A stretch of 64,000 bases of DNA from Chitinophagaceae bacterium (GTDB taxonomy: Bacteria; Bacteroidota; Bacteroidia; Chitinophagales; Chitinophagaceae): assembly GCA_020437365.1 (NCBI GenBank), contig JAGQWM010000006.1:1-64000 (forward strand), written 5' to 3'. The translations under genes were made by a program, and so were the position numbers. Shown in pieces: positions 3,779-60,314 of the stretch. Position 1 is the stretch's first letter; each line of letters starts with the position of its first letter. The notes beneath the pieces were generated by a model. That model made no database searches, had not been told where the DNA came from, and worked only from the letters and a program-made list of their open reading frames with translations.

Positions 3779-5119
3779 ATGAAGAAAATATTATTTTTAT
3801 TGTTAGGATTGTACATGCTGGTACCATCCACGTACAGCCAGGAAGATAATTTGATGCCCAAATCTTTGGGTATAAATTTCTTCTTAAATGATTTTACAAC
3901 TGCTGCCCGTATTCGTTCCTCTTCACTTTCCACTGTCTTAAGAACAAATTCATTGGAGAAATTGAAGAACATGAATCCCGGTTTATCTATTTCTTATTAC
4001 AAAGGTTTGCGTAGCCATTTGGATTTGGTAGCCACTGTAGGCGGCTCATTCCTCGATTATCCAATGGAAGGAAAATCATTTTCACGCAATAATTTTTTGC
4101 TGGAAGCCAATGCAGCGCTGAACTTCAAAATAACTTCTGAAGACTATTGGGTTCAGCCGTACATCACTGCCGGGCTTGGTGGACATAAATACCTTGGCTA
4201 TTATGGTGCTTTCATGCCCATTGGCGCAGGCCTGAAAATTAATTTACTCGACGAAGCACAAATCGTTGCTACTTCTACTTACCGTATTCCGATTACGACA
4301 CAAACAGCCAGTTATCATTTCCAACATAGTGTAGGAATCATCGGTAGATTAGTAAAGAAAAAAGAAAAAAAGATAATTCCACCACCGCCACCGCCGCCAC
4401 CTGCTGATACGGATGGTGATGGTATTTTGGATAAAGACGACAAATGCCCTGACGTAAAAGGCGTAGCCAAATACCAGGGATGTCCCATTCCTGATTCTGA
4501 TAAAGATGGTATCAATGACGAAGAAGATAAATGCCCGCAAGTTGCCGGTTTGGCCCGCTACCAGGGTTGTCCTATTCCTGATTCTGATAAAGATGGCATC
4601 AATGATGAAGAAGATAAATGCCCGCAGGTTGCCGGTTTGGCTCGTTACCAGGGTTGCCCTGTTCCGGATTCCGATGGTGATGGTATCAACGATGAAAATG
4701 ATAAATGCCCGAGCTTGAAAGGTACTGAAGCCAACCAGGGTTGCCCTGAAATTCAACCCGAAATGAAAAAGAAGGTTGATGTAGCGGCTAAGAATATTTT
4801 ATTCATTACCGGTAGTGCCAAATTGCAATCCAAATCTTATAAAGGATTGAATGATGTTGTGGATATTATGAAAGCCAACCCGGATATGTTGCTCAAAGTA
4901 GATGGCCATACAGATAATGTTGGTAAAGAAGATATGAACCAGACATTGAGCGAAAACAGGGCCAATTCTGTCAAAGATTACCTCGTCAGTAAAGGCATTG
5001 ATGCCGACAGAATTACAGCTGAAGGTCATGGAGAAACAATGCCGATAGCTACCAACAATACCGCTGCTGGACGTAAATTGAACCGTCGTTCAGAATTAAC
5101 GCTTAGCTATTTCAAATAA
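3779..5119 (+). CDS. OmpA family outer-membrane protein with thrombospondin type 3 repeats
   Basis: This is a structural outer-membrane protein expected to link the outer membrane to peptidoglycan. Order of parts: a signal peptide (KKILFLLLGLYMLVPSTYSQ), a predicted beta-barrel to about residue 195, a hinge of eight prolines, four calcium-binding TSP3 repeats (D-D-DGI-D-DKCP, residues about 210-322), and a C-terminal OmpA domain with LLKVDGHTDNVG and NRRSELTLSYF. Repeats two and three are almost identical in DNA with an 84-bp period. The ATG at 3779 gives the cleanest signal peptide; 3773 is the alternative. Confidence 0.9.
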   Translation: MKKILFLLLGLYMLVPSTYSQEDNLMPKSLGINFFLNDFTTAARIRSSSLSTVLRTNSLEKLKNMNPGLSISYYKGLRSHLDLVATVGGSFLDYPMEGKSFSRNNFLLEANAALNFKITSEDYWVQPYITAGLGGHKYLGYYGAFMPIGAGLKINLLDEAQIVATSTYRIPITTQTASYHFQHSVGIIGRLVKKKEKKIIPPPPPPPPADTDGDGILDKDDKCPDVKGVAKYQGCPIPDSDKDGINDEEDKCPQVAGLARYQGCPIPDSDKDGINDEEDKCPQVAGLARYQGCPVPDSDGDGINDENDKCPSLKGTEANQGCPEIQPEMKKKVDVAAKNILFITGSAKLQSKSYKGLNDVVDIMKANPDMLLKVDGHTDNVGKEDMNQTLSENRANSVKDYLVSKGIDADRITAEGHGETMPIATNNTAAGRKLNRRSELTLSYFK

Positions 5120-48602: not shown

Positions 48603-49133
48603 TTATTTTTTTTCCGGCAAAGGCATCACCGTGCCACACTTCTTACAAGTTCTCAATTCTTCATTACTCCAGAATTTTTCCATCACCGGCGGCAATTGCT
48701 TGACGATATCTTTTACAAATAAACTGTCTTCGTGCAACTTATTCCCACAGTTGTCGCAAAACCAGAGAAAGGCATCTTTTTCATTTTCCATGTCTTCCCT
48801 AACTTTTTCTATGACTAAGCCAACAGTATTGGCCGGCCTTTGTGGTGAATGCGGTGTTTTCGGTGGCAACAAAAACATATCTCCTTGCCGAATGGGGATA
48901 TCCCTTGGTTGCCCGTCTTCAATAATTTTTAAAAGAATATCACCTTCTACCTGGTAATACAATTCTTCGCTTTCATTATAGTGATAATCTTTTCGGGCAT
49001 TGGGCCCACCGACAACCATGACAATAAAATTTTCGGCATCTTTATAAATGCATTGATTACCGACCGGTGGTTTTAATAAGTTTCTGTTATCATCAATCCA
49101 TTTGGACAAATTGAAAGGATGTGCAATAGCCAT
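48603..49133 (-). CDS. nbaC: 3-hydroxyanthranilate 3,4-dioxygenase
   Basis: This iron enzyme opens the ring of 3-hydroxyanthranilate. The cupin core has DYHYNESEELYYQVEGDILL (metal His and Glu, near residue 47-60) and GDMFLLPPKTPHSPQRP (metal His, near 95). The C-terminal part carries two CxxC pairs, CDNC and CKKC, forming the rubredoxin-like iron site of bacterial enzymes. The 176-residue length is typical. It is the first gene of the minus-strand arm and diverges from the SDR gene. Confidence 0.96.
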   Translation of the reverse strand: MAIAHPFNLSKWIDDNRNLLKPPVGNQCIYKDAENFIVMVVGGPNARKDYHYNESEELYYQVEGDILLKIIEDGQPRDIPIRQGDMFLLPPKTPHSPQRPANTVGLVIEKVREDMENEKDAFLWFCDNCGNKLHEDSLFVKDIVKQLPPVMEKFWSNEELRTCKKCGTVMPLPEKK

Positions 49134-49186
49134 AATACTTAAATTTAAATTATAGATTTCGGGTCAAAAAATACAACTTTTTAACG

Positions 49187-49194
49187 TAGGTTTG
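49187..49194 (+). promoter_or_regulatory. -7 promoter element directly before the SDR gene
   Basis: TAGGTTTG matches TAnnTTTG and ends 5 nt before the ATG at 49200, so the transcript would be leaderless or nearly so. No clear -33 element is seen. Confidence 0.5.
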
Positions 49195-49199
49195 ACTAT

Positions 49200-49985
49200 A
49201 TGATTCTTTCTCTTTCAGAAAAAAAAGCAATTATTTGTGGTAGCACACAGGGAATTGGATTAGCCATAGCGGAAGAATTGGCTTTGTTGGGTGCCAATTG
49301 TACATTATTGGCCCGAAATGAAGAAGCTTTGCAAAAAGCAGTGTTAAAGTTAGATACACAATTGCGCCAGCAACATGAATACCTGGTGGCGGATTTTGCT
49401 CAGCCTGATCAAGTAAAAAAAGTAATTGAAAAGTATGTAAGCGACAATACGGTGCATATTTTAATCAATAATACTGGCGGCCCTCCAGCAGGAGCCATTG
49501 CGGAAGCAGAAGAACAAGATTTTTTGCATGCTTTTAACCAGCACCTGGTTTGTAATCATATTTTAGTCAAGTCGGTATTGCCGGGCATGAAAAAAGAAAA
49601 TTTCGGACGTATTGTAAATGTTATTTCTACTTCTGTAAAAATTCCATTGCCCAATTTAGGAGTGAGTAATACAATTCGGGGTGCCGTAGCCAGTTGGGCC
49701 AAAACCCTGGCGAATGAATTGGGACAATTTAATATTACAGTCAACAATGTATTGCCGGGATATACGGCTACGCAAAGATTGACTTCTATTATTGACAATA
49801 AACTAAAAAAAGGAAATGGTACTGCAGAGGAAATTGAAAATGCCATGATGCAGAAAGTACCGATGCGAAGATTTGCAGCACCCGCAGAAGTGGCAGCAGT
49901 GGCAGCTTTCCTGGCTTCGCCGGCAGCTTCTTATGTGAATGGTGTTAGCATTCCGGTGGACGGTGGAAGAACGGGAAGTATTTGA
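49200..49985 (+). CDS. SDR family oxidoreductase
   Basis: A classical short-chain dehydrogenase of 261 residues. CGSTQGIGLAIAEELALLGA near residue 12 is the TGxxxGxG cofactor motif (here GSTQGIG), INNTGGPPAGAI is the NNxG region, and the catalytic Ser of VNVISTSVKIP is visible, but the expected YxxxK reads NTIRGAVASWAK, with the Tyr apparently absent, as in several FabG-like relatives with a PNLGVSNTIRGAV loop. The C-terminal GVSIPVDGGRTGSI is typical. The substrate is unknown; position suggests a link to the kynurenine genes. Confidence 0.8.
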   Translation: MILSLSEKKAIICGSTQGIGLAIAEELALLGANCTLLARNEEALQKAVLKLDTQLRQQHEYLVADFAQPDQVKKVIEKYVSDNTVHILINNTGGPPAGAIAEAEEQDFLHAFNQHLVCNHILVKSVLPGMKKENFGRIVNVISTSVKIPLPNLGVSNTIRGAVASWAKTLANELGQFNITVNNVLPGYTATQRLTSIIDNKLKKGNGTAEEIENAMMQKVPMRRFAAPAEVAAVAAFLASPAASYVNGVSIPVDGGRTGSI

Positions 49986-49990
49986 TGGGT

Positions 49991-50270
49991 TGATTTGGAA
50001 ATGTTTCGATTAGTTGATTTGGAGATGGACTGATTTGGAAATGGTTGGATTAGTTGATTTGGAGATGAACTAATTTGGAAATAGTTGGATTAGTTGATTT
50101 GGAGATGAACTGATTTGGAAATGGTTCGATTAGTTGATTTGGAGATGAACTGATTTGGAAATGGTTCGATTAGTTGATTTGGAGATGAACTGATTTGGAA
50201 ATAGTTGGATTAATTGATTTGGAGATGAACTGATTTGGAAATGGTTGGATTAGTTGATTTGGAGATTAAA
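49991..50270 (+). repeat. Tandem array 1: seven copies of a 40-bp unit
   Basis: The unit is built from two near-repeats, TTGATTTGGAGATGAA and CTGATTTGGAAATGGTT, ending CGATTAG. The word GGAGATGAAC recurs at exactly 40-bp steps (50061, 50101, 50141, 50181, 50221), with single-base variants such as ATGGTTC/ATAGTTG. It fills the gap between the SDR and aldehyde dehydrogenase genes. No open frame or stable hairpin explains it. The same unit in reverse orientation forms array 2 at 54.9 kb. Confidence 0.95.
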
Positions 50271-50332
50271 TAATTAGCAAATCTGTTTTTCGACCGAATG
50301 TAATTTAAAATTCAAAAGCAATAGATTTAAAA

Positions 50333-51796
50333 ATACCATATCATCTCGAAAATTACATCGATGGCAATTTGATTGGCCCGTTGAGCGGAAAATTTATAGA
50401 TAATGTAAATCCGGCAACAGCAGAAATAGTTGGCCAAATTCCTGATAGCAACGAAAAAGATATTGCTGTAGCAGTACATGCTGCAGAAAAAGCGTTTCCA
50501 AAATGGAGATTGACATCACTGGAAGAAAGGTTCGCCATCCTTAATCGAATAGCAAACCTTATTGAAGAAAATCTTGACACATTAGCCTTGGCAGAAACCA
50601 ATGATAATGGTAAGCCATTGTGGTTGGCCAAGAAAGTGGACATACCAAGAGCCGCAGCCAACTTCCGTTTTTTTGCTACCGCCATCATGCATTTTGCTAC
50701 CGCAAGTCATCACAACGAAGGTGTGTCCGTCAATTATACATTGCGCCAGCCTATTGGTATTGTGGGCTGTATTTCTCCTTGGAATTTACCCTTGTATTTG
50801 TTTACATGGAAAATTGCACCGGCATTGGCTGCCGGAAATTGTGTTATTGCCAAACCATCAGAAGTTACACCGGTTTCGGCATTTTTGTTGGCCCGTATTT
50901 GTAAAGAGGCCGGACTGCCGAATGGTGTGTTAAATATTGTTCACGGTACAGGTGCTGTTACAGGCGAAGCTATTGTTACGCATCCGAAAGTAAAAGCCAT
51001 TTCGTTTACAGGAAGTACAAGAGCCGGAGAAAGAATTGCCGGTTTGGTGGCTCCAAAATTTAAAAAACTATCCCTTGAACTCGGTGGTAAAAATCCTAAT
51101 ATCATTTTTGCAGATGTAGCGAATGCAAAAGATGCCTGGGAAAAAATGTTGCGAACAACAATTCGGTCTTCATTCGAAAACCAGGGCGAAATTTGTTTGT
51201 GCGGCAGTAGGATTTTAATTGAAGAAACTGTGTATGAAAAATTCAAAACAGATTTTCTTCAAATGATAAAAGATGAATTAACTGTCGGAGACCCATTGGA
51301 AGAGAATACAAAACAAGGTGCTATTGTCAGTAAAGTACATTACGAAAAAATACTAAACTGTTTGGCAATAGCAAAGCAAGAAGACGGTAAAATTTTATGT
51401 GGCGGAAATGCCATACAACTTGAAGGCAGGTGTGCGAATGGTTTTTTTATTGAACCTACTGTTATCGAAAACCTGGGCCCGGATTGTACAACCAACCAGG
51501 AAGAAATTTTTGGGCCGGTGGTAACTTTACAAAGTTTTAAAACAGAAGAAGCAGCTATAGCATTAGCCAATGCTTCACAATATGGATTGGCTGCCAGCAT
51601 TTGGACAAATGATATTGGCAAAGCCAATAGGATGGCTGCTAATTTGGAAGCCGGCATCATCTGGATCAATTGTTGGTTGGTTCGTGACTTACGTACACCT
51701 TTCGGTGGCATGAAAAACAGCGGTGTTGGAAGGGAAGGTGGCTGGGAAGCTTTACGATTTTTTACCGAAGCAAAAAATGTTTGCATTAAATTATGA
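50333..51796 (+). CDS. Aldehyde dehydrogenase, probable 2-aminomuconic 6-semialdehyde dehydrogenase
   Basis: It likely oxidises aminomuconic semialdehyde to 2-aminomuconate with NAD. Motifs: PWNLPLYLFTWKIAPALAAG, the cofactor loop SFTGSTRAGERIAG, the Glu of LELGGKNPN, the catalytic Cys in FENQGEICLCGSRI, and FGPVVTLQSF. The first usual start codon is the TTG at 50369, but the conserved N-terminus ENYIDGNLIGPLSGKF is encoded in frame from about 50348, after a stop at 50306. Only ATA codons (50321, 50333) are candidate starts there; I give 50333 as an estimate. Confidence 0.85.
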   Translation: MPYHLENYIDGNLIGPLSGKFIDNVNPATAEIVGQIPDSNEKDIAVAVHAAEKAFPKWRLTSLEERFAILNRIANLIEENLDTLALAETNDNGKPLWLAKKVDIPRAAANFRFFATAIMHFATASHHNEGVSVNYTLRQPIGIVGCISPWNLPLYLFTWKIAPALAAGNCVIAKPSEVTPVSAFLLARICKEAGLPNGVLNIVHGTGAVTGEAIVTHPKVKAISFTGSTRAGERIAGLVAPKFKKLSLELGGKNPNIIFADVANAKDAWEKMLRTTIRSSFENQGEICLCGSRILIEETVYEKFKTDFLQMIKDELTVGDPLEENTKQGAIVSKVHYEKILNCLAIAKQEDGKILCGGNAIQLEGRCANGFFIEPTVIENLGPDCTTNQEEIFGPVVTLQSFKTEEAAIALANASQYGLAASIWTNDIGKANRMAANLEAGIIWINCWLVRDLRTPFGGMKNSGVGREGGWEALRFFTEAKNVCIKL

Positions 51797-52215
51797 ATGA
51801 AAAAATAATCAATACAAAAAATGCATCTGCACCGCTTGGGGCATATCCGCATGCAAGAAAGGTGGGAAATTTACTTTTTCTTTCCGGCATTGGCCCTCGC
51901 AATCCCAGAGATAACTCCATCCCCGGGTTGGAGTTGGATGCATCGGGCAATATTTTACAATATGACATCGAAGCGGAATGTCGTTCAGTATTTGCCAATG
52001 TAAAAGCAGTTTTGGAAGCCAGCGGCAGTAGCTGGGATAATATGGTAGATGTAACAGTCTTTTTAACCAATATGAAAAAAGACTTTGCAAAATACAATCA
52101 ATTGTACGGCGAATATTTTAAAAATGTGCAGGCTTGCCGTACAACGGTCGAAGTGAAAAGTTTGCCCACACCCATTGCTATAGAATTAAAAGTAATTGCT
52201 ACAATAGATAAATAA
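51793..52215 (+). CDS. RidA family protein, probable 2-aminomuconate deaminase
   Basis: RidA-fold enzymes hydrolyse imines and enamines; in Pseudomonas the 2-aminomuconate deaminase of the nba cluster belongs here. The 140-residue protein has APLGAYPHARKVGNLLFLSG, NVKAVLEASGSSWDNMVDVTVFLTNM, and the catalytic-arginine segment CRTTVEVKSLPTPIAIELKV. The ATG overlaps the aldehyde dehydrogenase stop (ATGA), so the two are coupled. The context makes the deaminase role more likely than a general RidA role. Confidence 0.85.
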   Translation: MNEKIINTKNASAPLGAYPHARKVGNLLFLSGIGPRNPRDNSIPGLELDASGNILQYDIEAECRSVFANVKAVLEASGSSWDNMVDVTVFLTNMKKDFAKYNQLYGEYFKNVQACRTTVEVKSLPTPIAIELKVIATIDK

Positions 52216-52216
52216 G

Positions 52217-53494
52217 ATGGAATATAAGAACGATTTAAGTTTTGCAAAACAGTTGGATGAAGAAGATGAATTAAAAAGTTTTCGTCAAAAATTTTTTATA
52301 CCACAGCATAATGGAAAGGACTCCATTTATTTTACAGGAAATTCTCTCGGGCTTCAACCTGTTACCACACAATCTTATATTCAGCAGGAACTCGACGACT
52401 GGGCTGCTTTTGGAGTAGAAGGACATTTTCAAGCCAGAAATCCATGGATGCCTTATCATGAAATGTTCCCCAAACTATTATCGAAAATTGTAGGTTGTCA
52501 GGAAAATGAAATTGTTGTCATGAATCATTTGACAGTCAATTTACATTTACTGCTGGTAAGTTTTTACAGGCCTTCAAACAAAAGGTTTAAAATTATTTGC
52601 GAAGCCGGTGCTTTTCCCTCTGATCAATATGCATTGGAATCTCAAGTTTTGTTTCATGGTTTTCAGCCTGAAGAAGCCATTATAGAAGTTGCCCCACGAA
52701 ATGGCGAACACAGTTTACAAACAAAAGACATACTTGCTCTCATTAAAGAGCATGGCGATTCGGTAGCAGTTGTACTTTTCGGTGGTGTGAACTATTATAC
52801 CGGCCAGTTTTTTGATTTGCAAAAAATAACAACAGCTGCGCATGAAGTTGGCGCAATTTGTGGTTTTGATCTGGCACATGCTGTTGGTAATGTGGCATTG
52901 GATTTACACAACTGGCAAGTTGATTTTGCTTGTTGGTGTTCTTATAAATATTTGAATAGCGGTCCGGGAAGCGTTGCAGGAATTTATTTACATGAAAAAC
53001 ATATTACCGATACATCTATTCCAAAATTTGCCGGTTGGTGGGGTTATAAAAAAGAAACCCGCTTCAAAATGGAAAAAGGTTTTATACCCATTCCTACGGC
53101 CGAAAGTTGGCAATTGAGTAATGCTCCTATTTTATCAATGGCTGCACATAAAGCAGCATTAGACATTTTCAATGAAGCCGGTATTGAACGATTGCATCAA
53201 AAAAGAAAATTATTATCAGGTTATTTACATTTTGTTTTGCAGGAAATAAATAATCGGCAAGCAGAAAACATAATGGAAATTATTACACCGGCAAATGAAA
53301 CTGAAAGAGGATGCCAGGTGTCTATATTGATGTTGCAAAAAGGAAAAGAAGTTTTTGATGAATTGACAAAACAAGGCGTTATTGCAGATTGGAGAGAGCC
53401 TAATGTCATTCGGGTGGCACCCGTGCCTTTATACAATAGTTATGAAGAAGTATTTCGGTTTGGCGCCATTATACAATCGATTTTAAATACTTAA
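52217..53494 (+). CDS. kynU: Kynureninase
   Basis: KynU is a PLP enzyme that cleaves 3-hydroxykynurenine to 3-hydroxyanthranilate and alanine. The 425-residue protein has YFTGNSLGLQP, WMPYHEMFPKLLSKIVG, FDLAHAVGNVALDLHNW, and the PLP lysine in CWCSYKYLNSGPGSVAG near residue 245. It starts 1 nt after the deaminase gene and precedes kmo by 40 nt, so it is in one operon with the other plus-strand genes. Confidence 0.96.
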   Translation: MEYKNDLSFAKQLDEEDELKSFRQKFFIPQHNGKDSIYFTGNSLGLQPVTTQSYIQQELDDWAAFGVEGHFQARNPWMPYHEMFPKLLSKIVGCQENEIVVMNHLTVNLHLLLVSFYRPSNKRFKIICEAGAFPSDQYALESQVLFHGFQPEEAIIEVAPRNGEHSLQTKDILALIKEHGDSVAVVLFGGVNYYTGQFFDLQKITTAAHEVGAICGFDLAHAVGNVALDLHNWQVDFACWCSYKYLNSGPGSVAGIYLHEKHITDTSIPKFAGWWGYKKETRFKMEKGFIPIPTAESWQLSNAPILSMAAHKAALDIFNEAGIERLHQKRKLLSGYLHFVLQEINNRQAENIMEIITPANETERGCQVSILMLQKGKEVFDELTKQGVIADWREPNVIRVAPVPLYNSYEEVFRFGAIIQSILNT

Positions 53495-53534
53495 ATTGAT
53501 TGATGAAATAATTTTCAATTCGACAAAAAATAAA

Positions 53535-54896
53535 ATGAAAAAAGATATTACCATTGTGGGAGCCGGGTTGGTTGGTTCTCTTTTGTCTGTGTATTTATCA
53601 AAAAGAGGGTATAGCATTTCTTTGTTCGAACGCCGTAGTGATATGCGAAAAGAAAAACTCAGTGCTGGCCGTTCTATCAACCTTGCATTGAGCGACCGTG
53701 GATTATTAGCTTTGGAAAAAGTTGGTTTGGCCTACAGCATAAAACAAATATGCATTCCCATGCATGGCCGTTGCATTCATAATACCGATGGCACAATTGC
53801 ATTTCAACCTTATGGCAAAGAAGGGCAATATATAAATTCTGTGTCCCGCGGTGAATTGAATAAAAGGCTTATGTCGTTGGCAGAGGAAAATGGAGCGAAT
53901 ATTTATTTCAATGAAAAATGCACGGCCATTGATTGGGACAATCGAAAAGTGGTATTCGAGAATGAAGAAACAAAAAATACGAAGATTCAAAAAGCTGATT
54001 TAATTTTTGGTGCCGATGGTGCCTTTTCAGCTGCTCGTTTGCAACACCAGTTACACCATCATAAATTCGATTATCAGCAATATTATATTGATTGCGGCTA
54101 TAAAGAATTGACCATTCCTCCAACGGCCAATGGCGATTTTGCGTTGGAACCAAACGCATTACACATCTGGCCCCGCAAATATTATATGTTGATTGCACTT
54201 CCTAATTTGGATAAAACGTTTACTTGTACTTTATTTTTCCCATTTGAAAATCTGTCAGATGACGAACAGCGGCTTTCATTTAAAAAAATAAATACGGAAG
54301 AAAAAATTAAAAAGTTCTTCCATGCCAATTTCCCGGATGCCATTCCACTCATGCCGGATTATGTCAATGAATTTTTGACCAATCCCACATCTTCATTGGT
54401 AACAGTAAAATGTTTTCCATGGATTAGGGATGATTATTTTGCATTGATTGGCGATGCGGCACATGCATTGGTGCCTTTCTATGGACAAGGAATGAATTGT
54501 GGTTTTGAGGATTGCCGCATTTTGGATGAACTGATTGAAAAATATGCTACTGACTGGTCAAAAGTTTTTAGTGAATACCAAACAATGCGTAAGCCGGATG
54601 CAGATGCCATTGCAGATTTAGCCATATATAATTTTACGGAAATGCGGGACAAAACTGCCGACCCGAAATTTTTGTTGCAGAAAAAAATTGAAAACAGGTT
54701 TGCACAATTACATCCTGATAAATGGTTGCCTTTATACTCTCTTGTTACTTTCAGTCCTGAAATTCGCTACTCCGATGCTATGAAAAAAGGAGAACAACAG
54801 GAAAAAATTATGAGTGAAATAATGAAAATGCCCGGTATAGAAAAAAAATGGGAAAGTGAGGAAATTGAAAAATTAATGTTGCGTAAAATCGACTAA
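53535..54896 (+). CDS. kmo: Kynurenine 3-monooxygenase
   Basis: KMO is an FAD enzyme that hydroxylates kynurenine using NADPH. ITIVGAGLVGSLLSVYLSKRG at residues 5-25 is the FAD motif, LFERRSDMRKEKLSAGRSIN follows, ADLIFGADGAFSAAR is the second motif, and LIGDAAHALVPFYGQGMNCG near residue 308 is the GD motif. The 453-residue length is typical. The ATG at 53535 begins the FAD fold; the open frame to 53496 adds 13 unlikely residues. Array 2 follows its stop. Confidence 0.96.
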   Translation: MKKDITIVGAGLVGSLLSVYLSKRGYSISLFERRSDMRKEKLSAGRSINLALSDRGLLALEKVGLAYSIKQICIPMHGRCIHNTDGTIAFQPYGKEGQYINSVSRGELNKRLMSLAEENGANIYFNEKCTAIDWDNRKVVFENEETKNTKIQKADLIFGADGAFSAARLQHQLHHHKFDYQQYYIDCGYKELTIPPTANGDFALEPNALHIWPRKYYMLIALPNLDKTFTCTLFFPFENLSDDEQRLSFKKINTEEKIKKFFHANFPDAIPLMPDYVNEFLTNPTSSLVTVKCFPWIRDDYFALIGDAAHALVPFYGQGMNCGFEDCRILDELIEKYATDWSKVFSEYQTMRKPDADAIADLAIYNFTEMRDKTADPKFLLQKKIENRFAQLHPDKWLPLYSLVTFSPEIRYSDAMKKGEQQEKIMSEIMKMPGIEKKWESEEIEKLMLRKID

Positions 54897-55054
54897 TCGT
54901 TTCGTCTCCAAATCAACTAATCGAATCATCACCAAATCGACTAATCGTTTCATTTCCAAATCTCCAAATTGAATCATCGCCAAATCAATTAATCGCATCA
55001 TCTCCAAATTGAATCATCTCCAAATCAACTAATCGTTTCATCTCCAAATCAATT
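54894..55054 (-). repeat. Tandem array 2: 24-bp and 40-bp units related to array 1 in reverse orientation
   Basis: On the plus strand the core unit is CTAATCGTTTCATCTCCAAA plus TCAA (24 bp); its reverse complement contains TTGATTTGGAGATGAA and CGATTAG, the same words as array 1. One 40-bp unit of the array 1 type is also present. About six units are seen, with changes such as ATCGCATC. It fills the kmo-pyrF gap and runs into the pyrF promoter. Confidence 0.9.
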
Positions 55055-55061
55055 AACTTTG
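55054..55061 (+). promoter_or_regulatory. -7 promoter element directly before pyrF
   Basis: TAACTTTG matches TAnnTTTG and ends 4 nt before the ATG at 55066, implying a leaderless or nearly leaderless mRNA. It lies at the end of array 2. Confidence 0.5.
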
Positions 55062-59504: not shown

Positions 59505-59510
59505 ATTTAC

Positions 59511-59795
59511 CATTTAAAAATTCACACATTTGCACATTTAAAAATTCACTCATTTACCCATTTAAAAATTTACCCATTTGCACATTTAATAATTCACTCA
59601 TTTACCCATTTAAAAATTCACACATTTGCACATTTAATAATTCACTCATTTACCCATTTTAAAATTTGCACATTTAAAAATTTACACATTTGCACATTTA
59701 ATAATTAACTCATTTACCCATTTAATAATTCACTCATTTACCCATTTAAAAATTCACACATTTGCACATTTAATATTTCACACATTTAAAATTCT
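59511..59795 (+). repeat. Tandem array 3: about twelve 24-bp units
   Basis: Two alternating unit types are seen, CACACATTTGCACATTTAAA plus AATT and CACTCATTTACCCATTTAAT plus AATT, giving a loose 48-bp higher-order period. Single-base changes and small deletions are present. The array fills the gap between the four-helix-bundle gene and aroK and has stops in all frames that I checked. Its reverse complement has the same TTTGnAnATG style as arrays 1 and 2. Confidence 0.93.
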
Positions 59796-59807
59796 CAATT
59801 CTACAAA

Positions 59808-60314
59808 ATGAAAATATTCCTCATAGGCTTTATGGGTTCCGGCAAATCGCATTGGGGGCATTTGCTAAGCCAGAAACTGGGGCTCCGGTTTTTTGACCTT
59901 GATAAACAAATAGAGGAAGAAAACGGGAAATCAGTCAATGAAATATTCTCGACAGAAGGGGAAGAACATTTTCGCCTGTTGGAAAAAGAAATTCTTTATA
60001 TTATTACAGAGAGTCACGATAATTTTATCATGGCTTGTGGTGGCGGAGCACCTTGCTTTTATAAAAATATAGACTACATGAATGATGCAGGTTTGGTTGT
60101 TTGGTTAAATCCACCGATCGAAAAAATACTTGAACGATTAATAAAAGAAAAAAATACACGGCCATTGATTCAGGATTTGTCAGATGAAGCCATTGGCGGA
60201 TTTATCCATAAAAAAATGACCGACCGAAAAATTTATTATGAGCAAGCAAGATTAATGATTACTGAAGAAAATATAAAAATTGAAAACCTGGTAGAAAAAA
60301 TATTTCATGCATAA
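59808..60314 (+). CDS. aroK: Shikimate kinase
   Basis: AroK phosphorylates shikimate, the fifth shikimate step, and supplies the substrate of AroA at the other end of the window. The Walker A loop is LIGFMGSGKSHWG at residues 5-17, the shikimate-binding Asp is in FFDLDKQIEEENGKSVNEIF, and the glycine-rich MACGGGAPCF follows. The 168-residue length is normal. Its 3' end overlaps the next gene by 8 nt. Array 3 separates it from the gene before. Confidence 0.94.
   Translation: MKIFLIGFMGSGKSHWGHLLSQKLGLRFFDLDKQIEEENGKSVNEIFSTEGEEHFRLLEKEILYIITESHDNFIMACGGGAPCFYKNIDYMNDAGLVVWLNPPIEKILERLIKEKNTRPLIQDLSDEAIGGFIHKKMTDRKIYYEQARLMITEENIKIENLVEKIFHA

Follow-up and report, generated by a model that had tools for sequence, protein, structure and literature searches.

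Array A1, at 49984..50275 on the forward strand of the 64,000 nucleotide stretch of Chitinophagaceae DNA analysed here (the window), is a run of tandem octamers after the first gene of a kynurenine-degradation cluster and, with a probability of roughly two in three, it is an intercistronic spacer of a degenerate 7-/8-bp array class that was grown by slippage and lacks a dedicated kynurenine role. A1 is most likely a variant within an established class, that of intergenic heptamer/octamer repeats; of chief interest are the sharp restriction of unit length to 7 and 8 and a polarity towards gene ends that occurs without G-tracts. The analysis moves A1 from a possible operon switch to the question of how bacterial intergenic DNA is made, and is a caution for annotators that such arrays are not to be taken as operon-specific regulation.

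Array A1 is built from octamers

TRF places the repeat at 49991-50266 with a period of 40, 6.9 copies, 94% matches and a score of 489, which bears out an earlier note on this DNA that described a tandem array of seven near-exact 40-bp units; the copy number is that of a draft assembly of 161 contigs, and the seven units differ at few positions. The same note had divided each unit into two subrepeats of ~13 bp, a description that has to be replaced: read in 8-bp steps, 34 of 34 consecutive octamers begin with RAT, hence 8 bp is the deeper unit of A1, and five octamers form one 40-bp higher-order block. The words are GATTTGGA, GATTAGTT, GATGAACT and AATGGTTG, arranged within each block in the order GATTTGGA AATGGTTG GATTAGTT GATTTGGA GATGAACT. 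A single octamer phase can be traced from 49984 to 50275, through ~7 higher-order units, and overlaps the stop codon of the preceding gene. Identity is 0.94 at a lag of 40 versus 0.56-0.57 at lags of 16 and 24, and this two-tier pattern suggests that the five-octamer block was amplified recently.

Many stop codons close all three forward frames, which confirms that the array is non-coding. A CRISPR array, likewise dismissed earlier, was rejected because the units are contiguous and unique spacers are absent, and a G-quadruplex heptamer repeat of the GGGAATC type was rejected because there are no G-tracts, GGG being absent from 49991-50270 on inspection of the sequence. The earlier statement that the units are not hairpins holds for the antisense RNA, which is almost unstructured (-6.6 kcal/mol), and less well for the G/U-rich sense strand, which folds at -72.6 kcal/mol, a value matched by 10 of 200 unit-shuffled tandem arrays. 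This makes the RNA structure a moderate one, which G.U pairing may have produced incidentally. No Rfam covariance model matched at the gathering score anywhere in the window.

The array lies between the first and second genes of a probable operon

Pfam matches identify 3-HAO, SDR, Aldedh, RidA-type, kynureninase and FAD monooxygenase genes in the cluster, as well as OMP decarboxylase, and so uphold the claim that the array precedes the aldehyde dehydrogenase (ALDH) gene of a kynurenine cluster; the gene order is kept in most relatives examined. An SDR-family oxidoreductase gene (49200..49985, +) comes first and ends at A1, followed by ALDH (50321..51796, +) and by the genes for a RidA-type protein, kynureninase and a FAD monooxygenase similar to kynurenine 3-monooxygenase (51793..54896, +).

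The Bacteroidota -7 consensus is TAnnTTTG. Its sole exact occurrence in 49101-50420 is TAGGTTTG at 49187-49194 (feature 49183..49199, +), located 5 bp before the SDR ATG in the 66 bp that separate SDR from the divergent 3-HAO gene, and the box is conserved in eight of eight relatives inspected; it is likely to be the operon promoter. Meanwhile, only 17, 20 and 29 bp separate the SDR stop codon from the ALDH ATG in three relatives, which leaves no room for a promoter there. The box before SDR and these short gaps together make it most likely that A1 lies after the first gene, in an intercistronic position, and not in the operon promoter and leader region to which it had been assigned. Judged from this arrangement, A1 most likely sits between the first and second genes of one predicted transcript.

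It is unlikely that A1 tunes ALDH-KynU-KMO output as a slow contingency switch in which copy number would act on RNA structure or spacing. The strong fold of the sense RNA would suit such a role, near-identical 40-bp units should favour copy change, and the VNTRs of Flavobacterium psychrophilum, mostly with 7-8 bp units, differ among isolates (PMC4501049), but A1 lies away from the conserved promoter box, similar arrays are found at unrelated genes, and the authors who described the heptamers of Xanthomonas and Nostoc did not identify a regulatory role for them (PMC4692102). Furthermore, a phase-variable repeat is expected to lie within the promoter or the coding sequence of its target gene, whereas A1 is intercistronic. 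A second strain was not found, the best kynureninase match in the genus being 76% identical.

The spacer differs between relatives

Comparison of the SDR-ALDH gap in fourteen genomes provides further evidence against such a switch, because relatives keep the same operon with gaps of 17-523 bp and unrelated spacer sequence. Heptamer hairpins occupy the gap in L088 and L099 (GTTTGAG and its reverse complement) and in L090 and L095 (ATGTTGA and ATTCAAC), an octamer array of CAATTAAC is present in L100 and L093, L101 has heptamer-like sequence, L098, L092 and L096 have an unrelated palindrome, and in L091, L102 and L097 the gap is just 17-29 bp. By this comparison of sequences the spacer is replaceable. 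The palindrome of L092, L096 and L098 (CAGATTATCATGAT...ATCTGCG...CTGCGTTC) resembles a dispersed hairpin element.

Eleven of the 14 genomes start ALDH with ATG; the aligned codon is ATA in the window (50321-50323, the ORF list giving TTG at 50369) and ATT in L093 and L100. Octamer arrays occupy the gap in exactly these three genomes, and no upstream in-frame canonical ALDH start was found in any of them. The ATA and ATT codons would be either non-canonical starts or the outcome of array overwriting of the start codon.

Inverted arms at the orthologous gap of relatives fold into hairpins of ~70 bp, as might be expected of a REPIN- or MITE-like origin, in which the arrays would be degenerate copies moved by a Y1 (RAYT/IS200-type) transposase and array pairs ordered + then - would be REP/iREP hairpins. 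Y1_Tnp matches are present in 18 of 42 genus genomes, including that of the window. However, at least five array-bearing genomes (G007, G008, G026, G028 and G062) have no Y1_Tnp match, G061 and G021 carry Y1 genes yet few or no arrays, and a conserved element sequence is absent, the words varying by site and by genome; an origin of this kind is very improbable. Dependence on RAYT/Y1 was rejected on the absence of PF01797 from the same five array-bearing genomes, which are drafts in which the gene may be missed.

Octamer arrays recur in the window and in its genome

Two octamer arrays besides A1, both overlooked by the earlier note, are present in the window. Array A2 (54886..55057, -) consists of ~20 octamers that use the A1 vocabulary on the opposite strand; it fills the gap between the monooxygenase stop codon and pyrF, ends ~9 bp before the pyrF ATG and is A/C-rich in sense. 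Array A3 (59505..59800, -) contains ~36 octamers with words other than those of A1 (AATGTGTG, AATTTTTA, AATGGGTA and AATGAGTG) in the same RATK frame; it fills the entire gap to an ATG at 59808, is A/C-rich in sense and nearly devoid of G, and its RNA is almost unstructured (-3.4 kcal/mol). By reading, the gene that starts at 59808 resembles a putative shikimate kinase.

A DNA search for the unit elsewhere in the genome, as had been proposed, matched C81:30902-31167, C81:31560-31725 and C103:10076-10217; the C81 arrays share A1 words and the C103 words are related. The genome was sampled over 0.5 Mb for array comparison, and arrays of A1-like build are also found at unrelated genes. The higher-order periods of these other arrays vary (16, 24, 32, 40, 72 and 88), which indicates local amplification of each array out of a shared set of words. 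Across the genome, the octamer-frame pattern gave 67 + 43 matches, with 0 in the reversed control. The exact 15-mer TTGATTTGGAGATGA has 17 copies in this genome, and two of the 293 other family genomes carry a single copy apiece; a word conserved across the family was rejected on the strength of these two single matches, and the near confinement of TTGATTTGGAGATGA to one genome indicates that array words turn over. On sequence grounds, the exact octamer words are lineage-specific. Heptamers occur alongside octamers in this genome, for example as dense arrays of GTTACTG, AACAAGC and AACCAGC at the start of contig C3 (L054:1-840), and may break assembly.

Unit length is restricted to 7 and 8

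An array caller was run at each lag from 4 to 20 on 169 intergenic regions of a relative (G027, 360 kb), with genes called by a simple ORF rule. Arrays were found at lag 7 (25), lag 8 (17), lag 14 (19) and lag 16 (12), with one each at lags 9 and 11 and none at the remaining lags. The caller found no arrays in shuffled intergenic sequence of the same relative, which, taken together with the empty reversed control, excludes chance for A1. Only a handful of arrays were present in 330 kb of coding sequence, and a small control of 42 intergenic regions in 100 kb of E. coli yielded none. The same 7/8 series appears in the repeated 6-mer spectrum of the genus and of independent, named loci from Bacteroidota. 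The intergenic tandem arrays of the relatives have unit lengths of 7 or 8 almost exclusively; array densities are not genome averages, because array content guided the choice of the G001 stretches and of some of those from G027.

Many genus genomes of 1.5-2.1 Mb match neither array pattern; array-free small genomes include G002, G003, G006, G011, G013, G014, G016, G017, G022, G025, G029, G034 and G064, and G007 and G060 (1.9 Mb) retain heptamers. Array load may track genome reduction.

Array polarity follows gene ends

In all sampled intergenic regions taken together, 44 of the 50 arrays nearest to a start codon have more C than G in the sense strand, and 42 of the 55 nearest to a stop codon have more G than C; A1, A2 and A3 all obey this rule. 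The GC skew of background gaps is -0.13 near starts, the same lean as the arrays, and 0.004 after stops, so the stop-side polarity of the arrays is unmatched by background composition. Furthermore, arrays are scarcer in divergent gaps (held by 11 of 270) than in the rest (82 of 805). When one array per genome was taken across the phylum the direction of polarity was the same, although the numbers are too few (7:4 at starts and 6:3 at stops). Selection that disfavours G-rich, structured sequence where translation begins would suit this polarity, though it gives no clear account of the preference on the stop side; because A1 is without GGG, G-quadruplexes are unlikely as its general cause.

Related octamers recur across the phylum

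Degenerate octamers of the RATKWGNN type recur across the phylum: RATK-frame arrays are present in 41 of 198 sampled genomes, with reversed controls that are mostly empty, albeit with as many matches or more in the control for a few genomes (G524 and G462). In 26 degenerate arrays, one per genome, the mean fraction of G is 0.55 at position 6, which the search left unselected, compared with 0.14 at position 7 and 0.20 at position 8; 9 of the 26 show no such preference. With the phylum search conditioned on RATK, these figures hint at a shared word, RATKWGNN, that is not universal.

Such a word could point to a sequence-specific system, i.e. a phylum-wide factor that recognises or writes RATKWGNN, whether a DNA- or RNA-binding protein or else a polymerase or reverse transcriptase that moves in 7-8-nt steps, with A1 as one site. 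The spread across the phylum, the G at position 6, the confinement of units to 7 and 8 and the + then - order of neighbouring opposite-strand arrays would all agree with this proposal, but RATK was selected by the search itself, the G preference is missing from about a third of the degenerate arrays, other words also form perfect repeats, the controls of a few genomes equal or exceed the matches and no candidate factor was identified, making a system of this kind decidedly doubtful. A broader conjecture, that a process or factor common to Bacteroidota, its step fixed at 7-8 nt, writes or maintains degenerate, gene-end-polarised arrays with RATKWGNN as the preferred octamer and rewrites gaps as far as the start codon and beyond it, is also considered improbable.

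Proposed origin of A1

According to the preferred reading, that A1 is a slippage-grown spacer, degenerate 7- or 8-bp arrays would arise, expand and be replaced in the intergenic gaps of this lineage, with slippage as the presumed engine of growth. A short octamer array would have formed first in the SDR-ALDH gap, after which replication slippage or unequal exchange would have raised a block of five octamers to ~7 copies. Selection would act mainly as a filter that excludes arrays from genes and makes them scarcer in divergent promoter gaps, with arrays tolerated where promoter or start codon is unharmed; those that remain are A/C-rich in sense beside start codons and G/U-rich in sense behind stop codons. 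A1 would have no dedicated regulatory role in kynurenine metabolism and any effect on ALDH would be indirect, through the length of the spacer and the folding of the operon RNA; the transcript may be mildly affected, since the A1 sense RNA is more folded than most unit-shuffled arrays. The 7/8 restriction would fit a polymerase-held segment that favours slippage of that length, while pure slippage from arbitrary seeds does not explain either the 7/8-only restriction or the G at position 6.

Relation to known repeats

Xanthomonas and Nostoc contain intergenic heptameric repeats, GGGAATC and GGGGA(C/T)T, and these G-rich heptamers share with the class of A1 both the preferred polarity and a shortage between divergent genes (PMC4692102). 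The A1 unit differs in being 8 bp (7 elsewhere in the genus) with a 40-bp higher-order unit, the word variety is far larger, and there are no G-tracts and so no G-quadruplex; the polarity of G-quadruplex repeats from unrelated phyla is reproduced without G-tracts. Mrazek 2007, as cited in PMC4679880 and PMC4692102, described long simple sequence repeats with units of 5-11 nt, of which heptamers are the commonest class, and proposed that slippage is governed by the stretch of DNA that the polymerase holds. A1, as a member of a mostly intergenic set of 7- or 8-bp tandem units, is of the same kind as these and the Xanthomonas-Nostoc repeats, although, unlike the Mrazek repeats as so cited, the present arrays are degenerate and include about as many octamers as heptamers.

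TAACTGA heptamer repeats are known from Beggiatoaceae, Cyanobacteria and some Bacteroidetes, the latter with long arrays mixed with other heptamers (PMC4679880). Like the present arrays they are intergenic, short in unit, often beside start codons and missing from the same gap in close relatives, but they have one conserved word, whereas the octamers here are lineage-specific and A1 follows a stop codon. The VNTRs of F. psychrophilum (PMC4501049) are from the same phylum and are mostly intergenic, with most listed units of 7 or 8 bp, although they are simple typing units for which an octamer phase or higher-order unit is undescribed. The tandem repeats of archaeal Borgs (PMC9879509) are similarly fast-evolving, independently arising and partly intergenic, but Borgs are extrachromosomal archaeal elements and their repeats are often coding. 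The polymerase-step idea becomes directly testable in culturable Bacteroidota species.

Elsewhere in the window, at 4472-4748, there is an in-frame coding tandem repeat of 87 bp that by eye is DSDKDGINDEEDKCP-like, in the style of calcium-binding thrombospondin type 3 repeats.
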